In this document: piece after piece, positions 24,086 to 32,494 of the stretch
Layout of the letters: every line of letters starts with the position of its first letter
Position numbering within the stretch: the stretch's first letter is position 1
Assembly: GCA_902805615.1 (NCBI GenBank)
Contig: CADCTQ010000335.1
Location: 1-35,604, forward strand
From: an uncultured Cytophagales bacterium
GTDB lineage: Bacteria > Bacteroidota > Bacteroidia > Cytophagales > 172606-1
Direction: 5' to 3'
Length of the DNA: 35,604 bases
Made by a program: the position numbers and the translations under genes
The notes under the pieces: model-generated
What the model was told of the DNA's origin: nothing
What the model saw: the letters and a program-made list of their open reading frames with translations, nothing else
Databases searched by the model: none

Positions 24086-25294
24086 ATGAAAGAAGCAGCG
24101 CACGAGGGAGCAGTACCCGAAAGTTTTGGCGGGGGAGCCGCGGAGAGTTTTTTGCGCATCTACATCGTATCCCATCCGGCCTCGCCGCACCGGAGCTATT
24201 TCTTCAATTGGGCGCATCATACCCTCTGTAAGGACAGCACCAATCTTCCCTTCGGCCGCGGGCTGGGCATTCCCGTGTACGATTTCCCGGAAGTACCCGA
24301 TAAACGGGAAGTACTCTCGTCCCTCGCCGCCCGGGTGGAGAAGCTTTTCATCATCATCCTGCTTGATTCCTGGCTGCTGGCGGACGAAGACCTCCGCAAG
24401 TTATGCACGCTGCTGGGCGAAGAAAACCAAAGGAATCCCCACAGGGTTACCCTCTTGCCCGTCGCTTTGGCGTCAGAAAGCGAAATAAAAGCCAGGAACC
24501 CTCTACCGGAGATTGAATATTTGTCCTTTTGGGAAAACAAGGAAGCGGAAAACGTACAAAACAATGGGCTGCTGAAGAACCAGTTTTTAGTGAACCTGCT
24601 GCACAATATGGGCCGGTTTGTCGTAGATGTGTCGCCGGCCGGAGGTCAATTCCCCATCAAGCTGTTCATCAGCTGCAAAAGTGATGATGAAGGCGAACTC
24701 GCCCTGGCCATTGACAAGCGGATCAAAGAAGCGTACCAGGCGCTCGAAACCTACCTGTACGTGGTCAGAAGTGCTCCGGGCACGAATATTTTAACCAAGA
24801 TTGACATGGCGGTAAAAGATTCCGTCCTGCTGATCATCCATTCTGACAAGTATTCCACCAGCCGGTATTGCCAGCGGGAGGTCAGACTCGCCAAAAGCCT
24901 GTTAACACCAATCGTGGTGATCAACCGGTACGTCAACGGCGAGGAAAGAAGTTTCCCCTACATGTTTAACGTGCCCCATCTGCATTACTTCAACAACGCA
25001 TTTGACGACGTCTTTCTGGACAAAGTGGTCCTGCACCTTTTGTACGAAATTGTAAGGCATCTCTACCAGAAAAACAGCCTTCATTACGAAGCCAGGCGGT
25101 TACAACAATTTGGTTCAGACGTTGGGATACTGGCCACTGCCCCCGAGCTGCTGGTATTTCCGGTGCTGAAAAAGCAACAGTACACGAAAGTCATTTATCC
25201 CGAGCCGAAACTCACCGCCGAGGAGATCCAAATTCTTCAGGCCATGGATCACGGCATCCGGTTCATTACGCTCACCGAACTCATTTCCGCCTGA
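24086..25294 (+). CDS. Tandem TIR-like domain protein (degenerate N-terminal TIR-like + canonical C-terminal TIR)
   Basis: FLRIYIVSHPASPHRSYFFNWAHHTL...KLFIIILLDSWLLADEDLRKL...; second domain IKLFISCKSDDEGELALAIDKRI...NILTKIDMAVKDSVLLIIHSDKYSTSRYCQREVRLAKS retains a Glu at the TIR NADase position. Confidence 0.82.
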   Translation: MKEAAHEGAVPESFGGGAAESFLRIYIVSHPASPHRSYFFNWAHHTLCKDSTNLPFGRGLGIPVYDFPEVPDKREVLSSLAARVEKLFIIILLDSWLLADEDLRKLCTLLGEENQRNPHRVTLLPVALASESEIKARNPLPEIEYLSFWENKEAENVQNNGLLKNQFLVNLLHNMGRFVVDVSPAGGQFPIKLFISCKSDDEGELALAIDKRIKEAYQALETYLYVVRSAPGTNILTKIDMAVKDSVLLIIHSDKYSTSRYCQREVRLAKSLLTPIVVINRYVNGEERSFPYMFNVPHLHYFNNAFDDVFLDKVVLHLLYEIVRHLYQKNSLHYEARRLQQFGSDVGILATAPELLVFPVLKKQQYTKVIYPEPKLTAEEIQILQAMDHGIRFITLTELISA

Positions 25295-25302
25295 AAGCCA
25301 CT

Positions 25303-27273
25303 ATGCCCATTCCAGAAGCAGTGCGAAGACTAACGGTCGGTTTATCCGTGTACCCCCACCCGGAAATGCACCGGTACGGGCTGCGGGACATCCATTTTTT
25401 CGACTACTCCCTGGAACTGGCGCCCTATTTATTCAGCATGGGGGCTAAAATTGCCCTTTGCCTGGAATGGACGGATGACACCGTCAGCCACCTGTACCGG
25501 CCCCTGGCGGAAATTGCCCGAAATTATGCGCCCGACGACGAAGGGGCTACGGCTCCCATCCTTTGCCTGGTGCCCTCGTTACCCGGCCCCTACCAGTCCC
25601 TGGCGGCATCCCTGCAAGACGTGCTGGAACTGGTGGTAGTGGATGCGGCAGCCGTGGTTGCCTCGGGGGTATTTGCGCATTACCAGCAAGCAGTTAATCC
25701 GCCCGTGCCGGTACAGGCCACCCCTGCCGCCGCGGTACGGGTCCAGTTCATTGAGTCCATTGATGCCCACATTGTGGCCGGAGGGGCCTTTTCGGAAGAG
25801 GACGGCGGGGTTGTGGAAGCGTTTTGCCTGGCGCTCTGGCAGCGCAAACCGGTTTACCTGCTGGGCGGTATGGGCGGAGGCGCCGGGGCCCTGGTGGACC
25901 TTCTTTTTGCCGGGCAGCGTAAGGCTTTGGTTACGCAGACCGGGCAAGCCGTTCCCCCAACCTACCAAGCGTTTTTACGCAAGTACACCGGGGGGAAAAG
26001 CATGGCGTCGGTTTTATCGAATCAACTGGGCGAGCCGGAAAACCGGGTTCTGTTTCAATCCATGAGCAATGTAGAACTGGCCGGGCTACCACTCAAGGGA
26101 TTATCCCGTTTCAATGCCCGGCGCACCGGAATATGGGAAAGACAATTCACGTCCGGCGAAGACCGCACGGCCGACCTCGATTTTTTGCTCCACCACGCAG
26201 CCGGAAATAAACAATATACGGCGTACTGTTTGCACCAACTTTTAAAGATTAGCAACAGCATCAGCCTCTATCCCCAGGTGCTGGAGGAGATTAGCCGGAT
26301 GGGCCCCCAAGCGGCGACTGCCCTCAAGGAGGCATTGGCAGACCAGGACCAGGACATCCGGCGAATGACAGTGGTAGCACTGGGGCAACGTGGCATGAGC
26401 ACAAAGCCCGCTGTTACTGCCTTGATAGAAGCGCTCAAGGATGAAGATGAAATGGTACGCTTTTACGCCGCCGAAGCCTTAGGACGAATCGAAACGGCTG
26501 CTCAGCCAGCCGTTCCTGCCTTAGCAGAAGCGCTCAAGGATGAAGATGAGAGGGTACGTTCCTCTGCCGCCCAAGCCTTAGGACGAATCGGAGGGGAAGC
26601 GGTGACTGCCTTGGCAGAAGCGCTCAAGGATGAAGATGAAATGGTACGCTCTTCTGCCGCCGAAACTTTAGGACGAATCGAAACGGCTGCTCTGCCTGCC
26701 GTTCCTGCCTTGGTAGAAGCGCTCAAGGATAAAGCTAAATCGGTACGCTCCTACGCCGCCCAAGCCTTGGGAGGAATCGGACCGGTTGCTCAGCCAGCGG
26801 TTCCTGCCTTGGTAGAAGCGCTCAAGGATAAAGATGAAGGGGTACGCTCTTCTGCCGCCCAAGCCTTGGGAGGAATCGGACCGGTTGCTCGGCCAGCCGT
26901 TCCTGCCTTGATAGAAGCGCTCAAGGATAAAGATGAAGGGGTACGCTCCTCTGCCGCCGAAGCCTTAGGACAAATCGGAGGGGAAGCGGTTAAAGCTTAT
27001 CTTACCAACCTGGCGAAAAGTTTGACAAGTGGAAGCAGCGAGACCAGGGCCGCTACTGCGCGGGAGTTAGGCATTATTGTCCCGTTACTGCAAAAGCATG
27101 TTCGGGAAGATGCTCTCCGTAAAAGCATTGATAGCATTGTTATTATACTGTCCGAAGTAGCAGAATATGATGAAGAAAGCAAAGTACGTTCTTCCGCTGA
27201 AAAAGCTTTGGAAAATATCACCGGGCCCAGTGGCAGGCATCAGCCTCAGGAAGTTCCCAGCCCGGTGCATTGA
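25303..27273 (+). CDS. SLOG-like (STALD-type) nucleotide-sensor domain protein with C-terminal HEAT repeats
   Basis: LTVGLSVYPHPEMHRYGLRDIHFFDYSLELAPYLFSMGAKIAL and AHIVAGGAFSEEDGGVVEAFCLALWQRKPVYLLGGMGGGAGALVDLL are SLOG-like; then six A-PAL-EALKD-DE-VRSSAA-ALG-IG HEAT units. Start lies 8 nt after the TIR gene stop. Confidence 0.78.
   Translation: MPIPEAVRRLTVGLSVYPHPEMHRYGLRDIHFFDYSLELAPYLFSMGAKIALCLEWTDDTVSHLYRPLAEIARNYAPDDEGATAPILCLVPSLPGPYQSLAASLQDVLELVVVDAAAVVASGVFAHYQQAVNPPVPVQATPAAAVRVQFIESIDAHIVAGGAFSEEDGGVVEAFCLALWQRKPVYLLGGMGGGAGALVDLLFAGQRKALVTQTGQAVPPTYQAFLRKYTGGKSMASVLSNQLGEPENRVLFQSMSNVELAGLPLKGLSRFNARRTGIWERQFTSGEDRTADLDFLLHHAAGNKQYTAYCLHQLLKISNSISLYPQVLEEISRMGPQAATALKEALADQDQDIRRMTVVALGQRGMSTKPAVTALIEALKDEDEMVRFYAAEALGRIETAAQPAVPALAEALKDEDERVRSSAAQALGRIGGEAVTALAEALKDEDEMVRSSAAETLGRIETAALPAVPALVEALKDKAKSVRSYAAQALGGIGPVAQPAVPALVEALKDKDEGVRSSAAQALGGIGPVARPAVPALIEALKDKDEGVRSSAAEALGQIGGEAVKAYLTNLAKSLTSGSSETRAATARELGIIVPLLQKHVREDALRKSIDSIVIILSEVAEYDEESKVRSSAEKALENITGPSGRHQPQEVPSPVH
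26407..26987 (+). repeat. Six near-identical HEAT-repeat-coding units of 99/90 bp
   Basis: GAAGCGCTCAAGGAT invariant in all six; GCGCTCAAGG starts at 26431, 26530, 26620, 26719, 26818, 26917 (spacings 99, 90, 99, 99, 99). Confidence 0.95.
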
Positions 27274-27317: not shown

Positions 27318-30300
27318 TCAGTCGAACGCGGCAAGCAGGGCAGATGCATCAATGACGCCGTAGCCCTGCCCCCGGTCCCAACGCCCGTTGTTGTTCTGCG
27401 TCTTCTGGAGAAGGGTGGAAATAATCTGGCTGCCGCTGGGGATTCTCCCTGCCTTCGCTGCCCGTGAAAGCAGTAATGCGATGGCGCCGGCAACGTGCGG
27501 AGCCGCCATGCTGGTGCCACTTTTGAGGGACACGTCCTGATCGGTGCCGCCTTCGGCCGCCCGAACCTGCACGCCCGGCGCACAGACAAGCGGCTTTTTC
27601 TGCCCGTCGCGGGTGGGGCCGTACGAAGAGAAACCACCCACCCGGATCGGCTTGAACGCGTCCACTGCGCCCACCGTGACCACGCTCTGTGCGGTTCCGG
27701 GAATGCTGAGCGTCATTTCCTCGTCTACGAAAGTCAGGAACGAGGTGGGCTCACCCGGACTGCGTTCGATCCAGCAGTGCACTTCTCCGCTGTCCCGAAC
27801 GGTCCCGCTGCGCATTTCGAGCGCCCAATCCCCCTGGCCCGCCGCGCGGGCCGGGTTACCCAGTTCGATCAGCAACTGGCTGTCGCCGTTATCAATATGG
27901 CGCTTGGTGAAGACCAGGCGATACGGGCTACCCCCGGGAAATGTTCCCTGGCGCTCAGGCGCCGCAGTGCCCACCCAATCCGACCAGTTTTCGGGTGGAT
28001 CAGGGGCAGGCGGTGTGGTTCCGGGCGGAACCGGCTGACGCAACCGGAATTCGATCTCGTCGGCACTGCTCCACCACAGCTCGATGCGCTCGGTGCGGCC
28101 TGCTTCCGGCGCCCGTCGCCAGCGTAACTCCTCCTGCGAGCCGGGCGGCAGGGTGACCTTGGCGTGGCCGCGCTTGTCGCGTTCATTCCCTGCTGACTTC
28201 ACCACCACGCGGCCTGGCTTACGCCCGGATTCGGAGAAGGCGTCGAATGCTACTTCGAGCGCCGACTTGCCGTCGTGCGCCCCGGCGTTCATGCCCTGAC
28301 TTACGTTTACGACCACGGGCAGGCCGAGGCTGGTCGCGAAGGTGTTGATGAAGGCAAGCGCCTCGACGTGGCTCTGCGAATAGCCAATCGGTCCGCTGCT
28401 GGCTGATACGATGATCAGCAGTTTCGCATCCGGAGCGACGCCGCCGAAGAAGTCCCCCACGGCCCGGCCCCCCGCAATGCTTGCCACGTGCGTTCCGTGT
28501 CCCCCACGGTTGCGTCCCAGGCCCGGAGGCACGATTCCCGTCTTCACGTAACCGTCAATCGCCCCTGCATCGTGAAACGTTCCGTAGGTGAATCCTTCCG
28601 GAGGGGGACCACCCGCAGCGGTTTGATCCCATATGCCCACGATGCGCGAGTTCCCATCGGCACCGAGAAACGTCTCGTGGAGCACATCAATGCCGTTATC
28701 AATCACTGCGATCAACGCCTGGTCACCCCGCTCCTTGTACGTGCCGGCCACGTGGGCATATTCGTCAGCTACTTTGATGAATGGCACTGACCGGTCACAT
28801 TCGATCTGTCCGGCGGGTCGGCTCTCCTCGATTGAAATTACCTGCGGATCGGCGAGCAGTTCTCTGACGCTTGCGTCCGAGCCGCGTGCGGAGAGGATTT
28901 TGCCCAGGCGCGAATGGATTACAAGGTCGGTAATGCCTGCGGGCTCCCGGGCGGCGTCTCCCAGCCGGATGAGCAGGGGTCTGGTTGGGGCGGGCGGCGC
29001 AACCGACTTTGACGAGAAGTCTTGCGCCGGGATGGGGTGAACCGTCACCTTGCCGGCGCGGTAGCGTTCCACGGTGCTGCGCAGGCGGGCGAGGAGGGCC
29101 GCCCCGGGTGAGGTGCGGTCCAGTTGGAGAACCTGGTCGTACTGGCGGAAGGTTGAAGACACTTCGAACGTCGTCATGTCCGGATGGTGGATGTACACGT
29201 CAAGGGCCCGCCCGGCCTCTTCGTATTGGTCGAGCGCCAGCAATGCTTCGACCCGCGATGCACAGTCCCACACAGCCAGGGGCGCATTTTGCGCAAGTTG
29301 ATCGAGATCCTCCACGATCTGCCGGGCAATCTCCCGGGCCCGGCCGGGTGGTGCGGCGTTGATGCCGTCGCGTTCTGCCCGCAGCATGCAACTCGCCGCG
29401 TTCACCCCGTGCCAGAAGTTGCCCGGGTCCTCCACGTATGCGGTTTCGTAGGCCGCAATGGCCTGGCGGAGCAACTCGTCTGCGCCGGGTGCGGCCGGCG
29501 CGTTCACGTAGCGTTGTTTGAAGGTACGACCGACCAGGCCGCGGGCCTCGAAGAGTTCCTGCCGCGAGGCGTTTGGGTCATCAATGATTGACTGGAGCAC
29601 GCGGAGGGCAGGGTCGTATTGCCCGGTTTCAATGAGTGCCTGACCGAACAGGCGTCGAACGCCGTCCTGTCTCGTTCCGGATGCAATCACCGCCTCCCCG
29701 TACCGGCGCATCAGCTCGAATGCACGCTCCCGGCGCAGCTTCTGCAGATCGTTGTAGGCATGTTGTGCGGGGTAGGCATACGGACGGTGTTTGAGATGGC
29801 TAACGATGGCGTCAACCAGTGCCTCCGCACTCACGTGGTCGTGCCGGGCGGTCGCCCGGGCAAGCGCGGCGGTGAAAATTTCCTCGTTCCATTCGATGCG
29901 CCGGGCGTTGGCCGGTACCCTCGTTTCAAACCCGCCACTTCCAACGGGTGGCAGCAGGCCGGCGAGCAGGCGTTTGGCTTGCTCTTCCCCCTCCTCCGCC
30001 GTGAAGTCGGCCTTGGGCAGCACCCAAAGCCTCGCCGGCAGCCGGGCTGCCTCCTGCTCGTCGAGGGCCGCGATCTGAACCACGATCAGGGTGCGCCGGT
30101 CGGCTAGTGCAATGTCAATCTCGCCGAGCGGTACCGTCGAGGCGAGGAGCGCCGGGGAAAGGATGATCAGTACGGCCTGGCATTGGTTCATTGCCTGCAC
30201 AATTGCGTGCCCACTGGCGTCAGCACCGGCCACCTGGGGTCTTGCCAGCCAGTATTCGTAGCCGTTGCTGGGCAGACCCCTCAGCACGCGCTCCTTTAAG

Positions 30301-30344
30301 AAGGGCGCATCTTCCCCGGCGTAGATGACATATACGGTTGCCAT
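27318..30344 (-). CDS. TIR + TRAFs-binding-like/TPR-like helical region + S8 (subtilisin) peptidase fusion
   Basis: N-terminus ATVYVIYAGEDAPFLKERVLRGLPSNGYEYWLARPQV...QCQAVLIILSPALL (TIR); middle EARGLVGRTFKQRYVN...AIAAYETAYVEDPGNFWHGVNAASCMLRAERDGI; S8 triad ALIAVIDNGID / RGGHGTHVASIAGG / SGTSMAAPHVAGAIALLLSRA. Confidence 0.9.
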   Translation of the reverse strand: MATVYVIYAGEDAPFLKERVLRGLPSNGYEYWLARPQVAGADASGHAIVQAMNQCQAVLIILSPALLASTVPLGEIDIALADRRTLIVVQIAALDEQEAARLPARLWVLPKADFTAEEGEEQAKRLLAGLLPPVGSGGFETRVPANARRIEWNEEIFTAALARATARHDHVSAEALVDAIVSHLKHRPYAYPAQHAYNDLQKLRRERAFELMRRYGEAVIASGTRQDGVRRLFGQALIETGQYDPALRVLQSIIDDPNASRQELFEARGLVGRTFKQRYVNAPAAPGADELLRQAIAAYETAYVEDPGNFWHGVNAASCMLRAERDGINAAPPGRAREIARQIVEDLDQLAQNAPLAVWDCASRVEALLALDQYEEAGRALDVYIHHPDMTTFEVSSTFRQYDQVLQLDRTSPGAALLARLRSTVERYRAGKVTVHPIPAQDFSSKSVAPPAPTRPLLIRLGDAAREPAGITDLVIHSRLGKILSARGSDASVRELLADPQVISIEESRPAGQIECDRSVPFIKVADEYAHVAGTYKERGDQALIAVIDNGIDVLHETFLGADGNSRIVGIWDQTAAGGPPPEGFTYGTFHDAGAIDGYVKTGIVPPGLGRNRGGHGTHVASIAGGRAVGDFFGGVAPDAKLLIIVSASSGPIGYSQSHVEALAFINTFATSLGLPVVVNVSQGMNAGAHDGKSALEVAFDAFSESGRKPGRVVVKSAGNERDKRGHAKVTLPPGSQEELRWRRAPEAGRTERIELWWSSADEIEFRLRQPVPPGTTPPAPDPPENWSDWVGTAAPERQGTFPGGSPYRLVFTKRHIDNGDSQLLIELGNPARAAGQGDWALEMRSGTVRDSGEVHCWIERSPGEPTSFLTFVDEEMTLSIPGTAQSVVTVGAVDAFKPIRVGGFSSYGPTRDGQKKPLVCAPGVQVRAAEGGTDQDVSLKSGTSMAAPHVAGAIALLLSRAAKAGRIPSGSQIISTLLQKTQNNNGRWDRGQGYGVIDASALLAAFD

Positions 30345-30681
30345 GTTGATTCCCGTTAAGAATGTTGTTTACGTGCTCAATGCAATGATTGGGGCAGGAC
30401 ATTTCTCCGCGCAACGAATCCCGCGGAAAAAGGCCCTGCCCCGCAGGAGAAACCCCGAACCGGCCCTACGCTTTACGGCCATCCCCGAACAATTGAAGAA
30501 CAGCCCCCGGGTCCTGCCGTACGACGCATCGCGGCGTGCTGCTGCCAACTTCAGGCGCACCGTACCGCCTGCCACCTCCACGACGGGGAACGGGTATCCG
30601 GTCACATCGAAGCGGTTGCTCTGCTGGTCAAGTTCCCCGGATTTGACGGCAGAAGATCAGCAGAGAAACGCCCGCTGTCAA

Positions 30682-30699
30682 TACCTGGAAGTAGGTATT
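30682..30699 (+). promoter_or_regulatory. 18-nt motif TACCTGGAAGTAGGTATT (copy 2), itself a short dyad (AATACCT...AGGTATT) followed by a T-run
   Basis: 16/18 match to 23964-23981; lies upstream of the TIR-S8 gene. Confidence 0.55.
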
Positions 30700-30809
30700 T
30701 TTTAACAATTGCCGGTTGTATCAATCAAATCCCGAACCTGATCCACGTTTGCCGGGGAAGGACAGCCTCTCTGCCATTTTAAGAGAAAAACGAATTTCTG
30801 TAATCCTGC

Positions 30810-30825
30810 TGACACAGGGCTGTCA
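30810..30825. promoter_or_regulatory. Palindromic operator candidate TGACA-CAGGGC-TGTCA
   Basis: Perfect 5-bp half-sites with 6-nt spacer, about 58 nt upstream of the DUF2461 fragment start. Confidence 0.5.
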
Positions 30826-30882
30826 CTGGGTAGGGTTTACTTTGCAGGGTAGAATCAATCAGTAACCCTAGCCCGTTTTCCC

Positions 30883-31150
30883 ATGCTTCAACATACCTCG
30901 GTTCAATTTCCGAAAAACCTTAGCCAGCACAACAATAAGGAGTGGTTTGACCAGAACAGGAAGCAGTACGGGCAGGCGAAAAGCGATTTTGAACGCCTGG
31001 CGGCAGCTCTTCCCGAGCGCCTGGGCAAAACCGACCCGACCATTGCCCATCTGATGCCCAAAGGCTGCCTGTTCCGCATCAACCGCGACGTACGGTTCAG
31101 CAAAGACAAATCGCCCTATCAAACGAACATGGGCATGTCAATTGCCAGGG
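30883..31150 (+). pseudogene. Truncated DUF2461 (TIGR02453-type) protein, N-terminal part only
   Basis: FPKNLSQHNNKEWFDQNRKQYGQAKSDFERLAAAL...RINRDVRFSKDKSPYQTNMGMSIARG is DUF2461-like; similarity stops abruptly and a stop follows at 31257. Confidence 0.75.
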
Positions 31151-31160
31151 GACAGGGCTT

Positions 31161-31532
31161 TTATTGCCGGATCACATCCACTTGCCAAACAATACTTTGC
31201 GGAGGGGATTTCTTGGCGGCGCATTCTCCGCAGGTCATGCCGGTTTCGGTGGCATAGCGGATAAAAAACAGGTTCCCCTCATCGGTTCCACTCAAGGAGA
31301 AAAATACGTACTGTTTCGAAGTGGTCGCCTCCAGTGGGAAGGAATGGTGCTTCAACACTTTTCCTCCCAGTTTCTGAATGTAACTCACCTTGTGTTCATC
31401 AATGAGCAAATTGAATTCATCAAATTCAAATTTGACCCGTCCTTTGTAAAACCAGTGGATGCCTCCTTTATACAGCCACCTCCCCTTGTAGTTTTGCAGG
31501 ATGAACGCAGCACTTTCGGATATTTCGTCCAT
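31161..31532 (-). CDS. Hypothetical protein
   Basis: 123-aa ORF with balanced composition (MDEISESAAFILQNYKGRWLYKGGIHWFYKGRVKFEFDEFNLLIDEHK...); no family recognised. Confidence 0.5.
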   Translation of the reverse strand: MDEISESAAFILQNYKGRWLYKGGIHWFYKGRVKFEFDEFNLLIDEHKVSYIQKLGGKVLKHHSFPLEATTSKQYVFFSLSGTDEGNLFFIRYATETGMTCGECAAKKSPPQSIVWQVDVIRQ

Positions 31533-31541
31533 ATTATTTCT

Positions 31542-32041
31542 TTAGCGACAAGATAAGGACCTTTTTACTGGCTTCAAAAAGGCAGGGGCTTGTCCCTTTC
31601 CCTTTTTATTTCCTTTTTTATCCCGTTTGCCTTCCTGGTCTGTCTCCGCCCGGGGGAAATTCGCTTGAGCGGCCCGCTGCTGTCCTTCCCACCACGTTTT
31701 GTCCCACTCCCGGGGATTGGTGATGTCGCCCAGACCGGGACCGTCGATCCGGGCAAAGAACTCATTACCGGTGCCCGTCAGGATAACTACTTTGTTGTCC
31801 CGGTCCCGGGCGATCATGAAAAGGCTTCGACAAAATCATGGCGGTCTTTGCCGGTGAACACAATGGGGCCGTTGTTGGTGGTCAGCCGGACGGTTAAAAT
31901 ACCACTGGCGGACCGGTGCATCCGCAGGTGTTCATAGCGGGTAAAATAGGCAGGGCCGGATGCGATGGGGGCTGTCGGGCTGGCGGGGTTGTCTCTCATT
32001 ATTCTTACTTTTTCCTCACAGTGCCGCAGGCCCGTTCCCAC
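31542..32041 (-). pseudogene. Frameshifted and C-terminally truncated enoyl-CoA hydratase/isomerase-like gene
   Basis: YEHLRMHRSASGILTVRLTTNNGPIVFTGKDRHDFVEAF in one frame continues as IARDRDNKVVILTGTGNEFFARIDGPGLGDITNPREWDKTWWEGQ in another, junction about 31810-31820. Confidence 0.72.
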
Positions 32042-32494
32042 CGTTTTTACGCCGGGGGGTGGTTTAGCGTAACCGGTCCGGGCGCTTGGTGTCCCGGCCG
32101 GAGGAAACGCGCCACATCCCGGTCATTGTCCAAGTCACTGCAAAGGGTGTACTCCGCGTGAGAAAGCCCGTGGGTGTGGCAGTAGGCCGGCAGCGACTGG
32201 AACAAGGCCGGCGTTTTCCAGGAAAGCTGCCCAAAATCTTCGCCGCGAAAACTGACTCCCGGAACCTTTTCCTTTACGGTTTTTAACCCGATTCCGGTCT
32301 TATCTTTTCGCACTTTTTATCGAGGGAAGACCACCCGTTGGGGTATTGTTGCAGCCGACTGAACGAAAAAGGTTAAATTACCCACTAATGCCCAACGTAA
32401 AGCGGGGAGATGTACTCCTGACGGACTACGGACTTGCATTCCTTTCTTACGGGGCGGGAACCACTCTTTTCTGCTCACCCTCTTTTGACAGTCC

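Follow-up and report, generated by a model that had tools for sequence, protein, structure and literature searches.

The window analysed here, a stretch of 35,604 nucleotides, carries a gene for a 1008-residue protein in which a TIR domain (TIR_2), a TPR-S domain ('Tetratricopeptide Repeats-Sensor') and a Csp-type subtilase are joined in one chain, as identified by Pfam and structure-database matches (Table 1). We give an even chance to the view that this protein is a TPR-S-gated, normally inhibited cytoplasmic signalling protease of an immunity- or abortive-infection-like type. In this scheme the subtilase would be the output, kept inactive both by the TIR-TPR-S arm and by a prodomain-like segment of its own. 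The TPR-S would act as the gate; in line with what has been proposed for TPR-S domains generally, it is predicted to bind either a protein trigger or a nucleotide derived from NAD. The TIR would either make this nucleotide in cis after oligomerisation or dock the protein onto other TIR oligomers. Opening of the gate would free the protease, which would cleave a specific target without random protein digestion; in the ancestral operon this target would probably have been a 260-residue partner with a conserved hydrophobic helix. We infer trigger, ligand, inhibition, substrate and immune role, the last from the genes found nearby: TIR, SLOG-HEAT, patatins and a further TPR-S gene in the loci of the window and of its relative, and TIR-nSTAND1 beside a TPR-S-trypsin operon.

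Table 1. Features of the TIR-TPR-S-subtilase gene and its surroundings (window positions)
Feature	Position	Strand	Support or remark
TIR-TPR-S-subtilase gene, 1008 aa	27318..30344	-	ORF and Pfam; full-length relative L034:6162-9134, 54% identity
TIR_2 domain, residues 4-126	29967..30335	-	Pfam, E 8.8e-10; putative catalytic Glu E75, codon 30120-30122
Helical TPR array, residues about 193-430	29055..29768	-	E 3.4e-13; contains TPR-S (29385-29720); pLDDT; ASK1 match
Prodomain-like segment, residues about 456-512	28809..28979	-	Alignment with pre-protease segment of other S8 relatives
Csp-type subtilase domain, residues about 540-1002	27339..28727	-	D549, H616, oxyanion N720, S945; 9sj6 and CspB 4i0w matches
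Insertion between S8 stretches, residues about 733-876, beta-rich	27717..28148	-	Position of Csp jellyroll; strands from low-confidence model
Relic of upstream partner gene, 47 codons	30489..30629	-	Residues 160-206 of 260-aa L034 protein, 64% identity
DUF2461, cut to first half	30883-31257		
Possible further frameshifted fragment	31572-31999	-	
TIR protein, 402 aa, neighbour	24086..25294	+	Pfam; 8 bases upstream of SLOG-HEAT gene
SLOG cluster 2 (LD_cluster2) and HEAT repeats, 656 aa, convergent neighbour	25303..27273	+	Pfam

The reading frame starts with ATG, is uninterrupted, and shows a strong bias in GC content by codon position (69/50/73%). TPR-S (PF20308) scored 50.5 bits at residues 209-320 (curated cut-off 27.6), and Peptidase_S8 scored 117 bits in two stretches, the last ending at residue 996. 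A preliminary description had proposed an N-terminal TIR, an intact Asp/His/Ser triad and the absence of a signal peptide, and all of this was borne out. TIR_2 was matched by Pfam at the N-terminus, D549, H616 and S945 were all found, and the N-terminus is not hydrophobic, the strongest 19-residue hydrophobic window lying within the TIR core. A secreted subtilase was ruled out by the lack of a signal peptide together with the TIR at the N-terminus. Pfam detected no kinase or PH domain in the 1008-residue protein. The model of the full-length protein was of such low quality (mean pLDDT 46.7) that inhibition could not be read from it.

A scan of about 85,000 species genomes (GTDB) returned a single full-length relative, in a Bacteroidia MAG (L034, JAUILF010000063.1), with 54% identity, the same domain order and conserved D549, H616, N720 and S945. 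Since this relative, in another Bacteroidia genome, keeps the same three parts, the architecture is not due to chance. In 396 genomes of the window's phylum, tblastn otherwise gave mainly S8-only matches and one TPR-S-only match (G367). The fusion is known from these two genomes only, a very patchy distribution, occurrence outside Bacteroidota being judged from plasmid records and one GTDB scan. The flanks of the window (SusC/SusD, FecR, Por secretion tails) show that it belongs to a Bacteroidota genome; contamination of the assembly is given as 6.3%.

The middle segment had been likened to the TRAFs-binding region of ASK1/MAP3K proteins. This resemblance held for the profile, the TPR-S score and the fold, whereas the family MAP3K_TRAF_bd itself (PF13281) gave no Pfam match to the window protein at E <= 0.1; it was just under the cut-off in the relative (22.1 versus 24.1 bits) and above it in other TPR-S proteins. 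When a profile of four TPR-S-region sequences was compared with PDB, human ASK1 was the best match (8qgy, E 0.0012; 5ulm, E 0.0014) and generic TPR proteins came at E 0.067 or worse. Similarity to generic TPRs only, a possibility raised in the preliminary description, was ruled out, as TPR-S scored 50.5 bits versus 29.9 for TPR_19 and ASK1 preceded generic TPRs in the profile search. In an AlphaFold model of residues 1-450, pLDDT was mostly 76-96 across residues 191-390. With this model as Foldseek query, ASK1 (8qgy) ranked fourth by E-value and exceeded all other folds in the list in query-normalised TM-score (0.45); the alignment, 478 columns long, covered most of the query, which fits, without proving, a co-linear TIR-TPR module. 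Profile and predicted fold together support homology of the TPR-S region with the ASK1 regulatory region. A conserved Lys is common to ASK1 and to TPR-S fused with subtilase, trypsin and DRHyd-like domains, as is, in most of the sequences, a G-x-N motif.

The TPR scaffold was reportedly described by Burroughs and Aravind in 2020, as a predicted sensor of NAD+-derived signals, and traced into the ASK signalosome. A bacterial origin of parts of the ASK signalosome is given in PMC8195603, citing Burroughs and Aravind. ASK1 residues 269-658 form seven TPRs and a PH domain, and the central region of ASK1 binds TRAF proteins and substrate (PMC8705584). Like other TPR-S proteins, the window protein has TPR-S above the cut-off and a TIR in the same system, but its fused output is a subtilase. 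With the N-terminal half of human ASK1 (MAP3K5) it shares the homologous TPR region and the position of the output enzyme, C-terminal of that region; it differs in that the output is a subtilase and not a kinase, that no PH domain was detected and that a bacterial TIR stands at the N-terminus.

The position of the TIR catalytic Glu (Ser69+6) is occupied by E75 in the window protein and, by alignment, by Gln in the relative. Judged from these residues, NADase activity of the window TIR is possible, yet not assured, the catalytic residue not being conserved; as the sole full-length relative has Gln there, NADase signalling in cis cannot be a general property. Alternatively, the TIR might be a non-enzymatic adaptor and the TPR-S a ligand-free scaffold, activation resulting purely from homotypic assembly with TIR proteins of the locus such as the 402-residue neighbour. 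We consider this rather unlikely: the Glu to Gln change, the separate TIR genes nearby in both loci and the binding of TRAF proteins and substrate by the ASK1 central region (PMC8705584) argue for it, but the window copy retains E75, the polar residues conserved across TPR-S fusions are compatible with a common ligand, and the TIR genes of the two neighbourhoods do not resemble each other. The 402-residue TIR protein was also compared with the GAF-TIR gene of L034 as a possible orthologue, and no significant similarity was found.

The two plus-strand neighbours form a TIR and SLOG-cluster-2/HEAT module (window 24086-27273), the TIR of which keeps S-x5-E. By analogy, this module could be Thoeris-like in logic, with TIR as producer and SLOG as sensor. 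In L034, the fusion lies in an island with patatins, TIR and a further TPR-S gene nearby. Contig C664 of the window's own genome (L126) carries a separate conflict locus with TIR genes, ParA-TIR, a patatin and a protein in which a nucleotide-enzyme-like domain is N-terminal to TPR-S; a similar gene set adjoins the fusion in L034.

The solved structures closest to the protease part by sequence were a germination protease (9sj6, E 1.4e-43) and CspB (4i0w), and Csp germination subtilases were also nearest by fold, despite the poor model. As in Csp, the Asp/His part and the Ser part are separated by an insertion, here of about 145 residues. The segment preceding the protease could be aligned with its counterpart both in S8 relatives that look cytoplasmic and in others that are likely secreted; the Pfam I9 prodomain was not detected in it. 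According to the preliminary description, a secretion signal or propeptide would speak against a cytoplasmic protease; no secretion signal was found, but a prodomain-like segment is present. In CspB, the prodomain stays bound over the active site as an inhibitor and the jellyroll lies within the protease; Csp proteases act in a pathway that cleaves and activates the enzyme SleC (PMC3567191). The window protein resembles Csp germination subtilases (CspB, 4i0w) in being matched best by them in sequence and fold, in the insertion inside the protease and in the prodomain-like segment, and differs from them by the N-terminal TIR and TPR-S, the immunity-like context and the absence of spores. The PADLOC subtilase and IetAS models gave no strong full-length match (partial subtilase match, 5.5e-23; IetS, 0.028).

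Germination proteases being the nearest solved relatives, the protein might be a house-keeping intracellular subtilase that serves protein turnover or development and in which TIR and TPR are interaction domains of a general kind. This is very improbable in view of the patchy distribution, of the island with TIR, SLOG and patatin genes, and of the presence of TPR-S with other conflict-type proteases.

Residues 164-441 of the window protein, the TPR-S region, share 33% identity with a plasmid-encoded Sinorhizobium protein that carries this region fused to a trypsin-like protease. TPR-S-trypsin fusions are present in L018 and L037, similar trypsin proteins in L137 and L138, and all four have a gene of about 300 residues (alpha/beta hydrolase) directly upstream. 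The arrangement, alpha/beta hydrolase then TPR-S-trypsin or a close trypsin relative, is a conserved two-gene operon (L018/L128, L037, L137, L138). A TIR-nSTAND1 gene adjoins the TPR-S-trypsin operon, and the trypsin domain of the TPR-S-trypsin proteins is similar to that encoded by genes whose annotation reads DNA/RNA non-specific endonuclease. TPR-S is also part of a CHAT protease in L131 (29.1 bits, cut-off 27.6). The fusion of TPR-S to trypsin-like and CHAT proteases in rhizobia makes the protease an exchangeable module, swapped behind or in front of TPR-S.

A second recurrent element is the gene that precedes the fusion in the relative (L034:5287-6069, 260 residues), which ends about 90 bases upstream of it. 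In the window this gene is reduced to a relic flanked on both sides by in-frame stops, and no partner sequence was found elsewhere in the window's genome. The fusion probably had a small membrane-type protein as partner in the past, and a fragment is all that survives of it in the window. Homologues of the partner adjoin a caspase-amidase-GDSL gene in L134, are two genes away from a trypsin in L129, L130 and L132, where an amidase intervenes, and stand between the CHAT-TPR-S gene and a TIR-nSTAND1-WD40 gene in L131; a hydrophobic stretch at about 121-140 is present in all of them. More distant, tandem homologues occur in Sinorhizobium plasmids, where no protease neighbour was detected. The partner gave no Pfam, PADLOC or convincing PDB match. 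Given its recurrent protease neighbours and conserved hydrophobic stretch, it may be a substrate of the protease, a pore-former or an inhibitor.

With only a relic of the partner left, the copy in the window may be in decay and may no longer function. In the stronger form of this idea the system is dead or dying, an operon remnant that has lost its effector partner and whose reading frame is open by chance for a brief time. The 47 codons left of the partner, the half-length DUF2461 fragment and the broken-looking genes at 30345-32490 point in this direction; we nevertheless judge it unlikely, given that 1008 codons are intact and no catalytic residue is missing, that identity to the relative is 54% and that the codon-position GC bias is strong. 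The gated-protease, TIR-docking and decay readings are mutually compatible. The region 30345-32490 is of lower GC and comprises, besides the partner relic and the DUF2461 fragment, a possible frameshifted fragment; for this last fragment, Pfam gave no confirmation of an enoyl-CoA-hydratase-like reading in the part examined.

In type IV Thoeris, described by Rousset et al. in 2025, a TIR signal reportedly activates a caspase-like protease. A gated protease encoded in the window would likewise have TIR input and protease output, but in one polypeptide, with a subtilase for the caspase-like protease, TPR-S in between and a putative messenger. PADLOC gave no Thoeris match for the window protein, in which TIR and protease form one chain and not separate genes. 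NucA-trypsin and protease-gated conflict systems (PMC7159879, PMC12799240) would be similar in that a protease triggers a second effector, but there is no nuclease partner at the window locus. The parts and the principle are already known. As far as the literature could be searched, we know of no report of TIR, TPR-S and S8 in one chain, and this chain and the partner family are apparently undescribed. A single chain with TIR, TPR-S and protease would allow TPR-S sensing and effector switching to be studied with one purified protein, and the partner family provides a concrete candidate substrate. The protein would also link the regulatory core of the ASK1 stress kinase to bacterial protease-driven cell suicide.

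The preliminary description compared the chain to an inflammasome or apoptosome; such behaviour can be no more than inferred here. Carried further, the protein could be a bacterial counterpart of ASK1, in which a NAD-signal-gated TPR-S would fire a zymogen-type subtilase and cleavage would release a small membrane-active partner. Proteases gated by TPR-S, whether subtilase, trypsin or CHAT, would then make up one general class of suicide systems, in which membrane or cell-wall-lysing partners could replace one another; we regard this extended proposal as speculative and quite unlikely in its entirety. Homologous small proteins (54%), annotated GH108 in one record, are encoded at L037:4365-4985 and L131:7073-7690, in both cases close to TPR-S proteases. 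Taken with the amidases that adjoin the partner in L129 and in L134, they hint at protease-triggered cell-wall lysis. For the proposed class, the pattern of a partner adjoining amidase and caspase or trypsin, and of a GH108-like gene in the vicinity of two TPR-S protease loci, is a hint of lysis from within.

A phage origin of the fusion was rejected, as the TPR and TIR parts were absent from the viral contigs searched and only S8 parts matched in phage records; a search of a viral structure library returned generic repeat proteins only. In two provirus-like viral contigs (L044 and L045), an alpha/beta-hydrolase-like sequence is fused to a subtilase in one chain.
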